Assembly (NCBI GenBank): GCA_024640845.1
Contig: JAHEEE010000038.1
Coordinates: 4,713-37,453, forward strand
From: Myxococcales bacterium
GTDB lineage: Bacteria; Myxococcota_A; Polyangia; Polyangiales; Houyiibacteriaceae
Reading direction: 5' to 3'
Length of the DNA stretch: 32,741 bases
Shown here piece by piece: positions 1,830 to 26,783 of this stretch. Both the position numbers and the translations under genes were made by a program. Each line of letters opens with the position of its first letter. Within the stretch, counting starts at the first letter, position 1. The notes beneath the pieces are model-generated. The model was not told the origin of the DNA. It worked only from the letters and a program-made list of their open reading frames with translations, and did no database searches.

Positions 1830-3284
1830 TCAATCCACGTCGTCGACGCAGGTCACCGCGACTGACAATTCATCGATGCAGTACGCGAAATCGTCGTCGG
1901 AGACCGCGACGCTAACCGAGTGGTCACCAACTTCGCCACAGGTGTAGGTCGTCGAGGATGCGCTCGGGTCGGCGATCGAGCCGCCGGTCCCTGTCCAGAG
2001 GTACGCGATCGGGTCGCCGTCCACATCGCTGCCCATCGCCGTGAGCTTGAGCTCGTTGCCGACGGAGGTTTGGAGCGGGGACACAATCACCTTGGTGAGC
2101 TCCGCGCAGGTGTTGATCTTGCAGTTTCCGGCGCCGTCACAGACGCCACCGCCGCTGCAAGGCGTCCCGTCGGGCTTGTTGGCACCGTCGACGCACATGC
2201 CGTCGGCGGGGTCGCATGTCCCATCCTCGACGCACTCGTTGTCGGAGGTGCAATCGACGCCTTCGCAAAGGTCGATGTCGACGCAGGTGCCTTCGAAGCA
2301 GCTTCCAGTGCCGCCGTCGCATGTGGTGCCATCCTCGACAGGCGTATTGCTACAGGAGCCATCGGCCGGGTCGCACGCATCGTCGGTGCAGTCGTTGCCG
2401 TCGTCGCAGTCGACGTCCTCGCAGAGGTCGATCGGAACGCATTCACCGCTCGAGCAAGTGCCCGCGCCGCCATCGCACCCGGTGCCATCTTCGACCGGCG
2501 CGTTGATGCAGGTTCCGTTGGCCGGATCGCAGTCGTCGTCGGTGCATTCGTTGTCGTCGTCGCAATCGACATCCTCGCAGAGGTCGCCATCGACACAGGT
2601 CACAGGGACCGTCCAGCCGTCCATGCAGTACTCGAAGTCGTCGTCCGAGACCGAGATCGCAATCGTCTGCGGGCCCGCCTCCTCACAGGTGTAGGTCGTG
2701 GAGGCCGCGGTCGCGTCGGAAATCGTGCCGCCGGTTCCCGTCCAGCGATATCGGATTACGTCGCCTTCTACGTCTTCGCCCATCGCCGAGAGGTCGATGT
2801 CGTTGCCGACCGAGGTCTGAAGTGGCGAGGCCACCGCTTTGTAGAGCTGCGCGCAGATGTTGACCTTGCCGTTCACGCGTGCGGCTCCGGTTTCCATCGG
2901 GAGCTGGCAGTTGAGCATCACCATGACATCCGTGGATACGCCGATCGCGACCTCGAACTCAGCAGAGCCCCAGCAGCTGACCTCGCCATCCGCACTCGTC
3001 GCGCTGAGCTCGACGATGTAGCCGTCCCCGGGAGGGAGCCCGTACACCTCGAGCGATGCGGTCGAGCCGGGGGCGCTCGTGTCGATCATCCCAGCCATGG
3101 GCTCCATGCCGTCGCGCCTGATCTCCCACGATACCGTATTGATCACGACGCCATCGGCGAGCACCAGGTCGAGCGACAGCGAGCCGCTGGCGTCGCCTTG
3201 TTGGGTATCGGTCGAGCAGCCGGGAGTCGCGAGGAAGCCGCACACGAGAAAGACGAGCCAGAGCAGGGATCCGGTACGGGGCAT
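1830..3284 (-). CDS. Secreted lipoprotein with Asp/Cys-rich repeats between two PKD-like domains
   Basis: 484 residues. The N-terminus is a signal peptide with a plausible lipobox ending at Cys23 (ATPGC). Residues 30-140 are a beta-rich domain. Two near-duplicate PKD/Ig-like domains lie at about 143-230 and 393-480; both contain SPLQTSVGN, TGTGG and SVSDDDF-type motifs with paired cysteines. Between them (235-390) are three ~50-residue units starting LCE-x-VDC, each with several Cys and acidic runs, of a kind common in myxobacterial surface proteins and possibly Ca2+-binding and disulfide-locked. The start is set by GAGGAGG five bases upstream of the ATG at 3284. It is probably an outer-membrane surface lipoprotein; no enzymatic motif is visible. 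The long open frame on the opposite strand is a composition artefact. Confidence 0.85.
   Translation of the reverse strand: MPRTGSLLWLVFLVCGFLATPGCSTDTQQGDASGSLSLDLVLADGVVINTVSWEIRRDGMEPMAGMIDTSAPGSTASLEVYGLPPGDGYIVELSATSADGEVSCWGSAEFEVAIGVSTDVMVMLNCQLPMETGAARVNGKVNICAQLYKAVASPLQTSVGNDIDLSAMGEDVEGDVIRYRWTGTGGTISDATAASTTYTCEEAGPQTIAISVSDDDFEYCMDGWTVPVTCVDGDLCEDVDCDDDNECTDDDCDPANGTCINAPVEDGTGCDGGAGTCSSGECVPIDLCEDVDCDDGNDCTDDACDPADGSCSNTPVEDGTTCDGGTGSCFEGTCVDIDLCEGVDCTSDNECVEDGTCDPADGMCVDGANKPDGTPCSGGGVCDGAGNCKINTCAELTKVIVSPLQTSVGNELKLTAMGSDVDGDPIAYLWTGTGGSIADPSASSTTYTCGEVGDHSVSVAVSDDDFAYCIDELSVAVTCVDDVD
2115..2582 (-). repeat. Three in-gene Asp/Cys-rich repeat units (~50 codons each)
   Basis: Tandem units beginning LCEDVDC, LCEDVDC and LCEGVDC encode residues ~235-390 of the lipoprotein. 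Units 1 and 2 (first and second in the protein) are most alike, sharing CDPA-x-G-x-C and PVEDGT; the third has diverged. This points to internal duplication. Confidence 0.8.
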
Positions 3285-3390
3285 GAATGCCTCCTCAAAA
3301 GGGGGGACGGAGCGACCAAGGGAGCCGAGGCTACCACCGTTGGAATCTGCGTTTCAAGCGCCTTTCCGACCCACGCGCCGCCCAAGGACC

Positions 3391-11133: not shown

Positions 11134-12066
11134 GTGCATCGACTCGTTCTGTGTTCTACTTGGATTCTTGTGGCCCTCGCGGTGTCGACGGCAGCGGCTC
11201 AGCGCTTCGCTCTGCCGTCGCAGTTCGACGAGGTCGTCGGCGCCGTGATGGACGTGGCGGCCTCCCGTGAGGAAACGCTATTGGACATCGCGCGTCGGTT
11301 CGACGTCGGCCAGGAGGAGATCCTGCTCGCCAACCCGTCGGTCGACCGCTGGCTGCCGGCCGAGGGCGCGGAGGTGATTCTGCCCACTTCATACGTTCTG
11401 CCTCGCACGCCGCGCGTGGGCCTGGTGCTGAACGTCCCGGAGATGCGGCTCTACTTCTATCCTCCGCGCGAACCCGGGCAGGATGCTGTAGTGCACACGT
11501 ACCCGGTGAGCATCGGACGGATGGACTGGTCGACTCCCCTCGGTCGGGCCAGCATCGTCGAAAAGACGGAGAACCCCGCCTGGCATCCCCCGGAGTCCAT
11601 CGTCGCCGAACGCCTCAGCAACGGCGAGCCTCCGCCAACGACGATTCCTCCGGGCCCGGACAACCCGCTTGGCGGCTTCGCCCTTCGACTGAGCATTCCT
11701 GGCTATCTCATCCACAGCACCAACAAACCGTTCGGTGTCGGAATGCGTGTGACCCATGGCTGCGTGCGCATGTATCCCGAGGACATGGAGCAACTCTTCC
11801 CGCTCGTCCCGATCGGGACGCCTGTGGTCATTCTGAACGAACCGATCAAGGTCGGATGGCTCGGCAATGAGCTGTTCGTCGAAGCTCATCCTCCCCTCGA
11901 GGAGGAGCGCGCACGATGGGACGTGCGAGCGCGCGCGGCGGAGCTCGTTCAACTCGAGAATAGCAAGCGCCCGGTCGTGCTCGACAGCTCTGCCTTGGAT
12001 CAGGCCCTGACTCTGCAGAACGGTATCCCGACGCGGATCGGCCGGGCCAAGGCCGCGGGCCCCTGA
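11134..12066 (+). CDS. LysM-YkuD L,D-transpeptidase
   Basis: 310 residues. Residues 1-22 are a signal peptide ending in STAAAQ. A LysM-like peptidoglycan-binding domain lies at ~40-85 (SREETLLDIARRF, NPSVDRWLP). The YkuD catalytic domain at ~95-240 has His194 and the motif THGCVRM with Cys210, as in the ErfK/YbiS/YcfS group. Members of that group either form 3-3 crosslinks or attach Braun lipoprotein to diaminopimelate. A charged C-terminal extension (240-310) follows. The GTG at 11134 gives a good signal peptide, although no strong ribosome site is seen. It acts in the periplasm. It converges, 30 bp apart, on the Lpp-like gene, its likely substrate. Confidence 0.9.
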   Translation: MHRLVLCSTWILVALAVSTAAAQRFALPSQFDEVVGAVMDVAASREETLLDIARRFDVGQEEILLANPSVDRWLPAEGAEVILPTSYVLPRTPRVGLVLNVPEMRLYFYPPREPGQDAVVHTYPVSIGRMDWSTPLGRASIVEKTENPAWHPPESIVAERLSNGEPPPTTIPPGPDNPLGGFALRLSIPGYLIHSTNKPFGVGMRVTHGCVRMYPEDMEQLFPLVPIGTPVVILNEPIKVGWLGNELFVEAHPPLEEERARWDVRARAAELVQLENSKRPVVLDSSALDQALTLQNGIPTRIGRAKAAGP

Positions 12067-12096
12067 AGAGGAGCTCGCAGACGAGGCCCGTCGACC

Positions 12097-12402
12097 TTAC
12101 TTGGACATCGCCTTCTTGAACATCCGATCGAGCTTGGCGCCATTGGCCTCGGAGGCTGCCTTGGCATCATCGGCGGATGCCTTGGCTGCCTCTGCGGCCA
12201 CCTTCGCATCGTTGGCTGCGTCGCGCGCAGCCGCCGCGTCCTGCTTGGCCTCATCTGCTGATGCCTTGGCCTCGTCGGCCACGGCTCGCGCATCGTTGAG
12301 ATCGGAGCGCAACTGGTCGATATCGGAGGTCGCGCATCCGATGAGTGGCGCGGCCGACAACGACCCAACGACCAACAACCGGATCAGGGTCTTTCTATAC
12401 AT
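12097..12402 (-). CDS. Lpp/OprI-like alanine-zipper lipoprotein
   Basis: 101 residues. A signal peptide with lipobox LIGC gives a 79-residue mature lipoprotein starting at Cys23. The rest is one continuous Ala-rich helix with ADEAKASADEAK-type heptads, as in the trimeric coiled coil of E. coli Lpp and Pseudomonas OprI. After the anchor it reads DIDQLRSDL, and it ends LDRMFKKAMSK, matching Lpp (IDQLSSDV... LDNM...YRK). The terminal Lys is the residue that L,D-transpeptidases link to peptidoglycan in Lpp. Its neighbours are a YkuD enzyme on each side. Inferred role: a covalent outer-membrane-to-wall tether. GGAAGG lies ~10 nt before the ATG. It is somewhat longer than E. coli Lpp (58 mature residues). 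Confidence 0.85.
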   Translation of the reverse strand: MYRKTLIRLLVVGSLSAAPLIGCATSDIDQLRSDLNDARAVADEAKASADEAKQDAAAARDAANDAKVAAEAAKASADDAKAASEANGAKLDRMFKKAMSK

Positions 12403-12504
12403 GGCGGCTAATCCTTCCTGTTCGCGTTCGTAGTTGCCTCGCCGGTTAGGCGACGCGATGTCGACGGCAGTATGGGGTCAAGCAGGCTGCTGCTCAAGCC
12501 CTCG

Positions 12505-13119
12505 TCAGCGCACTTCGACGCGCATTCCAACGCGAATCAAACGTGACAACCTTCGGATTTGATCATTGCTGAGGGCGATACACCCCTGGGTCCAGTTGAG
12601 CGTTTCGTGGACGCGCGAGCTGCTCTTGCCCAAGCCGTGAATGCCGAGTTGTCCGCCCAACGGCGTATCCTGTGGTGGTGGCTCACCTTGCGCGAATGCT
12701 GCTTGGATGCGCTCGTAGTCATCCGCATCGATCCGTCCCAGGTTGAACGCTCGGCGGGCGTGCTCGGGTCTCGGAAAGTCGATCCCAAAGAAGACAAGGT
12801 ATCGGGATCTTGGTTGAATTCGGTTGATTCGGAAGGTGCCTAGCGGTGTCGTGCCGTCCCCGCGCTCCCGGTCGAGGGAAGGGCCACCGCGACCGATGGA
12901 GATGTTGCGGAAACGCTCGACGAGCTTTCCGCTGCGAAACACAGAAAGGGTCTGTGTCTCCGTGTCGACGAGGATCCAGCCCTTGGGCGAGGGGGGCGCG
13001 GCATCCGCGGCGCCTTGCCATCCTGCGAGCCCAATGCACAGCGCGAGTATCCAGGACGCCGATGCCGCAGTGCTGCCGATCCTCCGACCATGGCGCGCGC
13101 GAATCTGCCCCCACCTCAT
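12505..13119 (-). CDS. YkuD L,D-transpeptidase (second copy)
   Basis: 204 residues from the ATG at 13119. This start gives an immediate twin-Arg/basic N-terminus and a hydrophobic signal segment (ASWILALCIGLAG, cleaved near AADA). A longer frame extends to 13290 but would overlap the next gene's end and bury the signal. The YkuD domain spans ~47-204: TPLGTF, IHGLG with His161, and the catalytic TQGCIAL with Cys180. TQGCIA replaces the commoner SHGCIR, which puts it in a different YkuD subgroup from the enzyme at 11134. No LysM domain. It lies 102 bp upstream of the Lpp-like gene on the same strand and may be co-transcribed. Alternative: a carboxypeptidase-type YkuD. Confidence 0.88.
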   Translation of the reverse strand: MRWGQIRARHGRRIGSTAASASWILALCIGLAGWQGAADAAPPSPKGWILVDTETQTLSVFRSGKLVERFRNISIGRGGPSLDRERGDGTTPLGTFRINRIQPRSRYLVFFGIDFPRPEHARRAFNLGRIDADDYERIQAAFAQGEPPPQDTPLGGQLGIHGLGKSSSRVHETLNWTQGCIALSNDQIRRLSRLIRVGMRVEVR

Positions 13120-14487: not shown

Positions 14488-15344
14488 CTATGGGCGAATC
14501 AGCTCGGAATCACACTCCGTTGGGGCCGAGATCGGGTTGCAGCGCCCGACGTACCCGCCAGGCACCTTCGCGGAGTACGTGCTGAAGTCGAGGTCCGGCA
14601 CCACGTAATCGGTGCTGACGAAATGCCCGCCGCTCGCCCAGGCCGCTTCTTGAAGCGTGTAGTCGTTGTCGCGCGACTGCTGGGTGTCCGCGTCGGCCCG
14701 GGTTCTCACCATGTAGCCGGCGCCGACCAGCGCTTCGATGCGCTCTCCGTCCGTCAACGAATTGTTCACGTTGAACCAGGCCGCTTCCGGATCCCCCTCG
14801 TCGGAGTTGGCGAACATGATCCGCCCTTCGAGCGAGGGGTGCCCGTCGATGTAGTGGTCGCGTGCTTCGCTCCGGTTCAAGAATACGAACATCACGCGCC
14901 CGCGCGCTTCGGAGAGCGTCAGCCAGCCGCCGTCGAGCACCGCTTCTTCGAGCGTCGCGGCGTCGCCCCGTACGTCGTCGGGCACGATGAGGCGCTCCTT
15001 GGGAAAGACCTGAAGGATCTCCGCATCGATGCTGTCGACCTCTTCCGGCCCGAACGGCAAGGGAATCGTGAACCCGAGATCGAGCGGATCTGAGATCTCC
15101 TCTTCTTTCGCCTCGATCATGATCGTGATCGGCAGATGGCGCCGATTCGCGTCCGACCACTCCTTCACGGTGGTGAGGCAGTCGATGAACGTCAGACAAT
15201 GCGTTTCGAAGTCGATGTCCTGAACGTGCAAAACCTTGAGACCCGGCTCCTGCAGCGATTCGGGTCCGACGTATGGCGGTGGGCCCACGACCCAAAGCCC
15301 GCGAGGGCCGACAGCAATACAGACCAAACGTTGATTCGCAGCAT
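14488..15344 (-). pseudogene. Broken paralogue of the PI-PLC-like lipoprotein (N-terminal deletion and frameshift)
   Basis: The original start is still visible: ATG at 15344 with GGAGG 7 nt upstream encodes a signal peptide (MLRINVWSVLLSALAG). That frame then runs out of register. In another frame, from about 15295 to 14488, the sequence matches the second half of the intact gene at 25381-26490: PPYVGP, then LKVLHVQDIDFET, LPFGPEEVD, EILQVFPKERL, and so on to the matching C-terminus CNPISAP. About 100 residues are missing, including the GTHNSYH and QLEFD active-site regions. There are no internal stops over ~270 codons, so the lesion looks recent, or a downstream start is still used. It could not be an active phospholipase. 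Confidence 0.8.
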
Positions 15345-15351
15345 GTCCAAA

Positions 15352-15356
15352 CCTCC
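15352..15356 (-). promoter_or_regulatory. Orphaned ribosome-binding site of the broken PLC paralogue
   Basis: GGAGG, 7 nt before the ATG at 15344. It leads into a signal peptide that no longer connects in frame with the rest of the gene. Confidence 0.75.
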
Positions 15357-15652
15357 AAAAGCTATGCCCCCGCTCTAGTCCAATTCCCTGGAATGATCTA
15401 CGGGTCCGCAACCAAGGGAGAGCTGACCGCCGTTGGCGCTAGGCCACCAAGTGAAACGGGGTAGCTGACGAGGAAGGCGCGCGCTTCGATCGATGCCTCG
15501 GCGGTCGAGAGTGGGTGCTGTGCAGTGCTTTGCTTGTCGAAGACCTCGGCGGGCCTTTGCCGCATTCGGGGCAGTCGCGGTCGGATCAGCGGCAGGATCA
15601 CCGGCGCCCCTTTTGGCTGGCAGTTCGACGGTCAGACGGCCATCCTCTCGGA
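15357..15652. other. Divergent gap upstream of the MgtC-like gene
   Basis: About 300 bp between the leftward PLC pseudogene and the rightward membrane-protein gene. Short open frames cross it, but none resembles a known protein. No repeat, hairpin with U-tract or RNA gene was recognised. Confidence 0.4.
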
Positions 15653-25380: not shown

Positions 25381-26490
25381 CTATGGCTCGATGAGATCAG
25401 ACTCGCATGGTTCCGGGGCCGAGACTGGGTTGCACCGGGCCACGTAGTCCCCCGGTATGGCGGTATGGTATTCGGTGCCGAAATCCGGATTGGGCACCAC
25501 GTAGTCGGTCACGACCGATTGAGCTCCACTCTCGAACGCTGCCACTTGGAGGGTGTAGTCGTCGTCGCGCGCCTGTTGGGTCTCCTCGTCCGAGCGGGTG
25601 CGTACCATGTACCCGGCCTGGACCAGCTCGCGGATTCGCTCCCCGTCCTCGAGCGCGTTGTCGACCTTGAACCACGACGCCTCCGGCTCTCCTTGCTCCG
25701 AGTTGGTGAACATCATGCGACCCTCGAGAGACGGATGACCGTCGACGTAGTGATCGCGAGCATCGCCCTCGTCGAGAAACACGAACATGAATCGCCCGCG
25801 TGCCTTTTCGAGCGTTGGCCAACCGCCATTCAGCACCGACTCTTCGAGCGTGGCGAAATCGGCACGTACGTCATCTGGAACGACTAGGCGTTCTCTCGGG
25901 AACACCTGAAGGATCTCCTCGTCGATGTCATCCACTTCGTCCGGCCCGAACGGCACCGGGATGGCGGCGTTGGGGAGGGGAATCGGGTCGTCTTTGGCCC
26001 CGATCATGACCGTGATGGGAAGATGCCTCGGATGTTCGTCCGACCACCCTTTGATCTGGTCGAGGCAGATCTGCAATGTCAGGCAACGCGTTTCGAAGTC
26101 GATGTCCTGAATGTGAAGCACCTTCATCCCGGGCTCGTCCAGCTCGGGGAGCCCCGAGTCGGGATCCTCGCCGATGTACCTCAATCCTTCCCGGCTTGCA
26201 TAGAGTCCGCCTTCGGGATCCGCGAAAATATCGAACTCGAGCTGGCGAACGCCGCGGTCGAGCTGCTCTCTCAATGGCAGCGCGGTGTACTCGAGACTAT
26301 CCGCGAGCTCCTGCGATTCGATAGCCGCAAGGACCTGGAGAATCTCGTCGCGCGGCTGAACATGATAACTGTTGTGCGTTCCGAGAACCTGGATCTCGTT
26401 CATGCGAAGCCCCTGTTCTACTTCCGAATCGTTGCAAGCGAGCACCACAACGCTGCAAGCAAAGCCCAGTAATATTACCAAGAATTTCAT
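25381..26490 (-). CDS. Phosphatidylinositol-phospholipase-C-like lipoprotein (Ca2+-dependent PLC1-like)
   Basis: 369 residues from the ATG at 26490. GGAGG at 26498-26502 lies 7 nt before it; the ATG at 26496 is too close to the site and upstream codons are not signal-like. The signal peptide has lipobox VVLAC, so this is a lipoprotein. The PLC-type TIM barrel begins MNEIQVLGTHNSYH (catalytic His in THNSYH), then LREQLDRGVRQLEFDIF (metal-binding Glu/Asp) and KVLHIQDID (second active-site His). The C-terminal part repeats features of the broken paralogue at 14488-15344. This family cleaves phosphoinositides or related phosphodiesters; the substrate of bacterial PLC1-like members is largely untested. 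Outer-membrane or periplasmic. Confidence 0.88.
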   Translation of the reverse strand: MKFLVILLGFACSVVVLACNDSEVEQGLRMNEIQVLGTHNSYHVQPRDEILQVLAAIESQELADSLEYTALPLREQLDRGVRQLEFDIFADPEGGLYASREGLRYIGEDPDSGLPELDEPGMKVLHIQDIDFETRCLTLQICLDQIKGWSDEHPRHLPITVMIGAKDDPIPLPNAAIPVPFGPDEVDDIDEEILQVFPRERLVVPDDVRADFATLEESVLNGGWPTLEKARGRFMFVFLDEGDARDHYVDGHPSLEGRMMFTNSEQGEPEASWFKVDNALEDGERIRELVQAGYMVRTRSDEETQQARDDDYTLQVAAFESGAQSVVTDYVVPNPDFGTEYHTAIPGDYVARCNPVSAPEPCESDLIEP

Positions 26491-26497
26491 TTTCATC

Positions 26498-26502
26498 CCT
26501 CC
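26498..26502 (-). promoter_or_regulatory. Ribosome-binding site deciding the PLC gene start
   Basis: GGAGG is 7 nt from the ATG at 26490 and 1 nt from the ATG at 26496, so the second, internal ATG is the functional start. Confidence 0.75.
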
Positions 26503-26783
26503 GTGGGCGATCGGCATCCCAAGCGAACCGCATCGAGCCGCGCGAGCTCCTTTCGCCTCATTGTCGCAGTGGGCTGCATCAGGCGTGCCAACGAGGCGCA
26601 GCGCTTTCCCCACGGGTTCTCACCCCTCTGCTGCTCCAAAATCGAAAGTTCTGCGTCCCGACGATCGGTGGTGCACAAGCTGCGCGAATGACCGCGCGCG
26701 GGGCTGAACGAGCAAACGACAAAGAAGCAGAGGAACAACGATCGGTTGTAGGGGATGCCCTCGAGCGTCACACCGCCTCCCGC

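Follow-up and report, generated by a model that had tools for sequence, protein, structure and literature searches.

Does an uncultured myxobacterium encode a covalent tether between its outer membrane and its peptidoglycan, and if so, where did it come from? Published surveys confine Lpp, the Braun-type lipoprotein, to a subset of Gammaproteobacteria or Pseudomonadota (PMC8263019; PMC10260701, citing Witwinowski 2022). The survey in PMC8263019 counted Lpp proteins of family PF04728, and the Myxococcota lipoproteins that we describe here are of the OprI type. The question is raised by three open reading frames, ldt1, lpp and ldt2, at positions 11134-13119 (coordinates confirmed) of a 32,741-nucleotide stretch of a Myxococcales genome, which we refer to as the window. 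We consider it probable that this cassette is a compact covalent outer-membrane tether module that was acquired whole, with Ldt1 attaching the lipoprotein and Ldt2 most likely opposing it.

An alanine-zipper lipoprotein gene lies between two YkuD-family genes

The gene ldt1 (11134-12066, forward strand) encodes a 310-residue L,D-transpeptidase of the LdtA/B/C/E type with the motif THGCVRM, the predicted lipoprotein-attaching enzyme. It is convergent to lpp (12097-12402, reverse strand), which specifies a 101-residue lipoprotein of the Lpp/OprI family, and to ldt2 (12505-13119, also reverse strand), which is situated upstream of lpp and specifies a 204-residue YkuD-family protein of the GCxA subgroup (TQGCIAL), a predicted periplasmic hydrolase and possibly a detaching amidase. 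The initial annotation had described an Ldt-Lpp-Ldt cluster; the adjacency and the order stand, whereas reading the three genes as a single operon is ruled out by their opposite strands. The window genome and "Myxococcales bacterium SG8_38" are members of one genus, and SG8_38 is the nearest other carrier of the cassette, so the earlier description of the genome as myxobacterium-like was correct. All three genes are under purifying selection when compared with the SG8_38 copy, with dN/dS of about 0.14-0.20, values that are approximate only (dS 1.3-1.8).

Judging from its profile matches, lipobox, alanine heptads and C-terminal lysine, Lpp is very likely an alanine-zipper lipoprotein of the Lpp/OprI family. 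It passed the cut-offs of both NCBIfam NF040598 (Lpp/OprI; 51.4 bits, cut-off 43) and PF11839 (42.5 bits, cut-off 23.1), and its sequence reads LIGC at the lipobox and ends in ...MFKKAMSK. The mature protein of 79 residues is one long heptad repeat with alanine at the core: 20 of the 23 a and d core positions are alanine or hydrophobic, with a period of 3.5 whose power was reached in 77 of 5000 shuffles. No chance alanine-rich reading frame would account for the above-cut-off profile match, the purifying selection and the conserved end, which together rule out that explanation. Open reading frames, profiles and motifs thus bear out a lysine-terminated alanine-zipper lipoprotein between two YkuD enzymes, as first proposed. 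The peptide expected on lipoprotein-linked muropeptides has to be amended, since trypsin would leave AMSK rather than MSK.

The C-terminal lysine, whose retention in homologues bears on the same proposal, is present in 79 of the 82 readable lipoproteins that adjoin Ldt1 in the loci we inspected (a count that leaves out L131, a copy broken by a run of N). The exceptions that end in arginine are two Myxococcota copies, L111 (4983-5375, ending ...TKSGR) and L114 (5964-6380, ending ...SKGGR). Their genomes each hold a second, lysine-terminated copy (L129 and L109, respectively), and the arginine-ending lipoproteins are possibly an untethered paralogue. At one gammaproteobacterial locus, L160, the lipoprotein ends in MQKG, with glycine after the lysine; its Ldt1 neighbour lies at 2117-3343 and the cluster is otherwise typical.

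Within the window genome lpp is the sole copy of the Lpp/OprI family, and the genome encodes seven YkuD domains in total, five of them in proteins other than Ldt1 and Ldt2. Non-covalent tethers are probably present too, because seven OmpA/Pal-type domains scored above cut-off.

Ldt1 is likely the enzyme that attaches Lpp

Ldt1 comprises a signal peptide, a weak LysM-like N-terminus, a YkuD domain (Pfam, E 1.3e-22) and a weak Ldt_C tail; the LysM match (12.7 bits, cut-off 20.9) and the Ldt_C match (17.8 bits, cut-off 26.8) fall in the expected places and below cut-off. Its THGCVRM motif fits the pattern [ST]xGC[IV]R, and the arginine two residues past the catalytic cysteine recurs in the Ldt1 proteins of Myxococcota clusters. 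By NCBIfam models, PDB matches (9tyw, 7.8e-78; 4lzh, 3.5e-47) and tree, Ldt1 groups with the E. coli enzymes of the LdtA/B/C/E type. NCBIfam models of the LdtE/ErfK/YcfS type scored 170-193 bits, all below their equivalog cut-offs; the best of them, LdtE (NF047955), reached 192.9 bits against a cut-off of 480, marking Ldt1 as a relative and not an LdtE equivalog.

Members of this group differ in what they do. LdtA, LdtB and LdtC attach Lpp and LdtE probably makes 3-3 crosslinks (PMC8263019), while LdtPae2 of Pseudomonas aeruginosa, from the same LdtA/B/C/E lineage, is the sole OprI-anchoring enzyme in that species; lineage does not separate attachment from crosslinking (PMC10434034). Because LdtE falls in the same group and Ldt1 scores below the equivalog cut-offs, the two activities are indistinguishable for Ldt1 from sequence alone. 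By homology to the OprI-LdtPae2 and Lpp-LdtA/B/C systems, however, Ldt1 likely attaches Lpp, because its lineage includes LdtPae2, a relative of it is convergent with oprI, and Ldt1 and Lpp co-occur tightly. Among 361 Myxococcota genomes, Ldt1 was found in all 19 with an above-cut-off Lpp as compared to 4 of the remaining 342 (Fisher p 4e-28, relatedness ignored). The adjacency of an Lpp-type substrate and its probable attaching enzyme, singled out at the start, proved to be conserved across dozens of genomes.

It is improbable that Ldt1 is instead a 3-3 crosslinking enzyme of the E. coli LdtE kind, with Lpp being attached by a different YkuD enzyme or not at all. LdtE is the top NCBIfam model of Ldt1 and adjoins lpp in E. 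coli, the lineage argument of PMC10434034 leaves room for a crosslinker, and any of the five other YkuD proteins of the genome could attach Lpp; against this, LdtPae2 anchors OprI as a member of the Ldt1 lineage, and Ldt1 co-occurs strictly with Lpp and adjoins it in most loci.

Ldt2 probably belongs to the hydrolase-like side of the YkuD family

Alanine or asparagine two residues past the catalytic cysteine marks DpaA-like hydrolases, whereas transpeptidases have arginine there (PMC8263019). Ldt2 (YkuD in Pfam, E 1.8e-21) has alanine, and alanine or glycine occupies this position in all 39 cluster Ldt2 sequences that we aligned; with E. coli DpaA included, the 40 sequences divide into 37 with alanine and 3 with glycine. 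The assignment of the two YkuD enzymes to different subgroups therefore holds well beyond the window, as the GCxR/GCxA split is conserved across dozens of genomes. In hhalign comparisons the Ldt2 profile matched DpaA over 112 columns with 95.7% probability and LdtB over 43 columns with 56.7%.

Other features set the window protein apart from DpaA. Loss of Lys83 abolishes DpaA activity (PMC10653827); in our alignment the Lys83 column holds aspartate in the window Ldt2, with arginine one residue later, and the Tyr131 column holds glutamine. The Lys83 equivalent is retained in most Ldt2 proteins of other Myxococcota clusters. The DpaA model NF040599 did not match the window Ldt2. It did match, at E 5e-13 to 1e-7 and below the equivalog cut-off, four Ldt2 proteins from clusters with the order Lpp>Ldt2>Ldt1, in which the third-gene slot is filled by a protein that resembles the DpaA model weakly and retains the lysine. 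Our reading is that the Ldt2 slot usually holds a GCxA hydrolase predicted to act on the tether, and that the window carries a divergent type. We put the chance that Ldt2 itself detaches Lpp from peptidoglycan at about one half.

An AF2 model of Ldt2 (pLDDT 89.9) contains a long helical insert, and its nearest folds are YkuD, Pgp2, Bd1075, Csd6 and DpaA. The top Z values were tied, and we dropped any decisive structural label for that reason; in Foldseek the DpaA structure 8ikr (1.6e-5) ranked below YkuD and the carboxypeptidases. This neighbourhood bears on two other activities. Ldt2 might act as an L,D-carboxypeptidase, shortening stem tetrapeptides to tripeptides and so setting the number of acyl donors left for Ldt1, and not as an Lpp-cutting amidase. 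Its model shares its fold with the L,D-carboxypeptidases Csd6, Pgp2 and Bd1075 on the hydrolase side of the family, lying near them as well as DpaA in Foldseek; VIA-align placed 119-129 residues on the Pgp2/Bd1075/Csd6/DpaA group versus about 109 on transpeptidases, and the carboxypeptidase model ElsL gave a weak match to one gammaproteobacterial Ldt2. However, Ldt2 does not conserve the lysine common to Csd6-type carboxypeptidases and DpaA (PMC10653827), nor an aromatic residue in the D-Ala pocket (the column of DpaA Met133 and Csd6 Trp158, mapped through Met133, is glycine), and the repeated linkage of ldt2 to lpp favours an Lpp-related role. We regard a carboxypeptidase as unlikely, albeit the most serious competitor to a detaching enzyme.

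A transpeptidase, making 3-3 crosslinks or serving as a second lipoprotein-attaching enzyme, is less plausible still. B. subtilis YkuD is among the best structural matches (Z 16.4), Ldt2 has the YkuD fold, and the loss of Lys83 would fit such an activity. Opposed to it are the alanine in place of the transpeptidase arginine, with alanine or glycine in 39 of 39 aligned cluster relatives, the closer profile match to DpaA than to LdtB, and the long helical insert, of a kind known from hydrolases (PMC10653827). For Ldt2, predicted 3-3 crosslinking is thus the less likely function and hydrolysis the preferred one.

The deep branches of a first Ldt2 tree are not relied on, as long misaligned YkuD rows and the long DpaA branch distort it. 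Ldt2 alone as query against the genome contigs returned no match, and neither did E. coli DpaA against the window genome and 13 others, a search that had no positive control and from which we draw no inference.

The cassette is rare in its genus, and related clusters occur elsewhere in Myxococcota

Only 2 of 19 members of the genus, the window genome and SG8_38, carry the cassette; neither Ldt1 nor an above-cut-off Lpp was found in the other 17 or in any of the 39 genomes sampled to represent the family and order outside the genus. The SG8_38 copy (G001, contig LJTN01000002.1) is identical in order, orientation and the last eight Lpp residues, MFKKAMSK, and its proteins share 62-68% identity with those of the window. 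Across the 18 kb compared, the three cassette genes are all that the two genomes have in common, and the flanks differ. Immediately to the left of the window cassette lies a sulfatase-family gene (PF00884; 8415-10829, reverse strand) with a lipoprotein-like signal, which was not found beside the SG8_38 copy.

In Myxococcota as a whole, about 20 genomes from about eight families combine OprI-type lipoproteins with their transpeptidase; outside the genus the genes are arranged as Lpp>Ldt2>Ldt1> on one strand or as Ldt2<Ldt1>Lpp<. The three-gene order that the initial annotation had suggested seeking in Myxococcota was therefore recovered in the two genus members, whereas other families are arranged differently and the order is mostly gammaproteobacterial. 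In some of the Myxococcota clusters (L104-L110 and L129) lpp, a gene for a DpaA-like YkuD protein and ldt1 are co-directional, apparently as an operon.

Ldt2-type proteins (E 1e-10) were detected in 13 of 23 genomes with Ldt1 versus 46 of 338 others; the divergent Ldt2 proteins of the operon arrangement miss this threshold and were recognised by reading the loci. Their occurrence is thus associated with that of Lpp without the family being reserved for it, because those 46 Myxococcota genomes have Ldt2-type genes and no Ldt1.

The cassette was probably acquired from a gammaproteobacterium

To find relatives outside the genus, named genomes were scanned with the Ldt1 alignment, so that loci were picked by Ldt1 similarity and not by their neighbours. 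This yielded 80 loci, SG8_38 and 79 others titled Gammaproteobacteria, Betaproteobacteria, Acidithiobacillus or unclassified Proteobacteria, for all of which we use "gammaproteobacterial" as shorthand. An Lpp-type lipoprotein adjoins Ldt1 in 57 of the 79, and 17 show the exact order and orientation Ldt1> Lpp< Ldt2<. The window Ldt1 is up to 56% identical to proteins of these loci versus at most 49% to those of other Myxococcota. In the Ldt1 tree the two SG8_38-genus proteins are nested in a set with 13 gammaproteobacterial loci (support 100/99), and AU tests rejected a forced grouping with other Myxococcota (p 0.0003 and 0.001). From this pattern we infer that the whole cassette was probably acquired from a gammaproteobacterium by the SG8_38 genus before the two species split; the tree bears on Ldt1, and the shared order on Lpp and Ldt2.

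The affinity of Ldt1, along with the lack of anything in common between the window and the G001 stretch beyond the three cassette genes, might also suggest a gammaproteobacterial contig misbinned into a myxobacterial genome. This we judge very improbable: the cassette is present in two genus members that were assembled separately, on contigs of 37 kb and 80 kb and with 62-68% protein identity, and its three genes have the GC and GC3 seen in adjacent genes and on further contigs of the genome. Since cassette composition equals that of the host, the transfer would also not be recent. A binning control based on a window gene for a carotenoid-type oxidoreductase was uninformative either way, its genus relatives being only 33-37% identical.

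A proposed tether and its relation to known systems

In the mechanism that we propose, Lpp would be lipidated at its N-terminal cysteine, sorted to the outer membrane, and assemble through its alanine zipper into a coiled coil of about 12 nm, its localisation, oligomeric state and length being predicted. Through its catalytic cysteine, Ldt1 would capture the L-centre of mDAP in a stem tetrapeptide and transfer it to the side-chain amine of the C-terminal lysine, fixing the outer membrane to peptidoglycan; this step is deduced from the enzyme family, the neighbouring gene and the conserved lysine. With less assurance, Ldt2 would most likely be a hydrolase working in the opposite direction, releasing Lpp or trimming acceptor stems.

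Systems of this kind, comprising Lpp or OprI, L,D-transpeptidases and DpaA, are already known, as is lpp-ldt adjacency in E. coli and Pseudomonas. Like the cassette, E. coli combines a lysine-terminated heptad-helix lipoprotein with GCxR attaching enzymes (LdtA, LdtB, LdtC) and a GCxA detaching enzyme (DpaA, or YafK), and its lpp and ldtE are convergent neighbours. In contrast to the window, its attaching and detaching genes are scattered, its mature Lpp is shorter (58 residues versus 79), and DpaA has Lys83 and lacks the long insert. Pseudomonas likewise has an alanine-zipper lipoprotein gene convergent with an Ldt1-type gene (locus L193), and LdtPae2 and LdtPae3 have been proposed as attaching and putative detaching YkuD enzymes (PMC10434034). 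However, no Ldt2-type gene was found beside oprI in L193 or elsewhere in that genome, and LdtPae3, unlike the window Ldt2, has been described as a near relative of YafK. The closest counterparts, in Thiohalobacter, Ectothiorhodospiraceae, Methylomonas, Halomonas and others, have the same genes, order and orientation, with Ldt1 up to 56% identical, and differ in host phylum.

We found no published description of the ldt1-lpp-ldt2 locus in the openly accessible literature, and on the evidence of that literature the occurrence of such a system in Myxococcota, the linkage of a third gene and the probable transfer are new; because our search covered open papers only, absence of a prior report is no proof of novelty. 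The cassette would widen the range of a tether regarded as all but confined to gammaproteobacteria, and covalent outer-membrane tethering would reach further than has been recognised if the Myxococcota lipoproteins are indeed linked covalently. Because a putative attaching GCxR enzyme and a GCxA enzyme are repeatedly paired beside the lipoprotein, such loci also offer a direct route to finding and testing detaching enzymes beyond E. coli DpaA. A bolder reading, which we advance tentatively and think somewhat more doubtful than not, is that Myxococcota use Lpp-type tethers, that a complete substrate-attach-detach cassette moves between phyla as a unit, and that Ldt2 represents a second, previously unassigned class of enzymes that hydrolyse the lipoprotein-peptidoglycan link, separate from DpaA.

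Elsewhere in the window, two genes on the reverse strand (14488-15411 and 25381-26613) encode Ca2+-dependent phosphoinositide phospholipase C. The PF16670 profile was matched by the first, over profile positions 88-329 only, such that its 5' part is perhaps missing or degraded; the second reads as its close relative.
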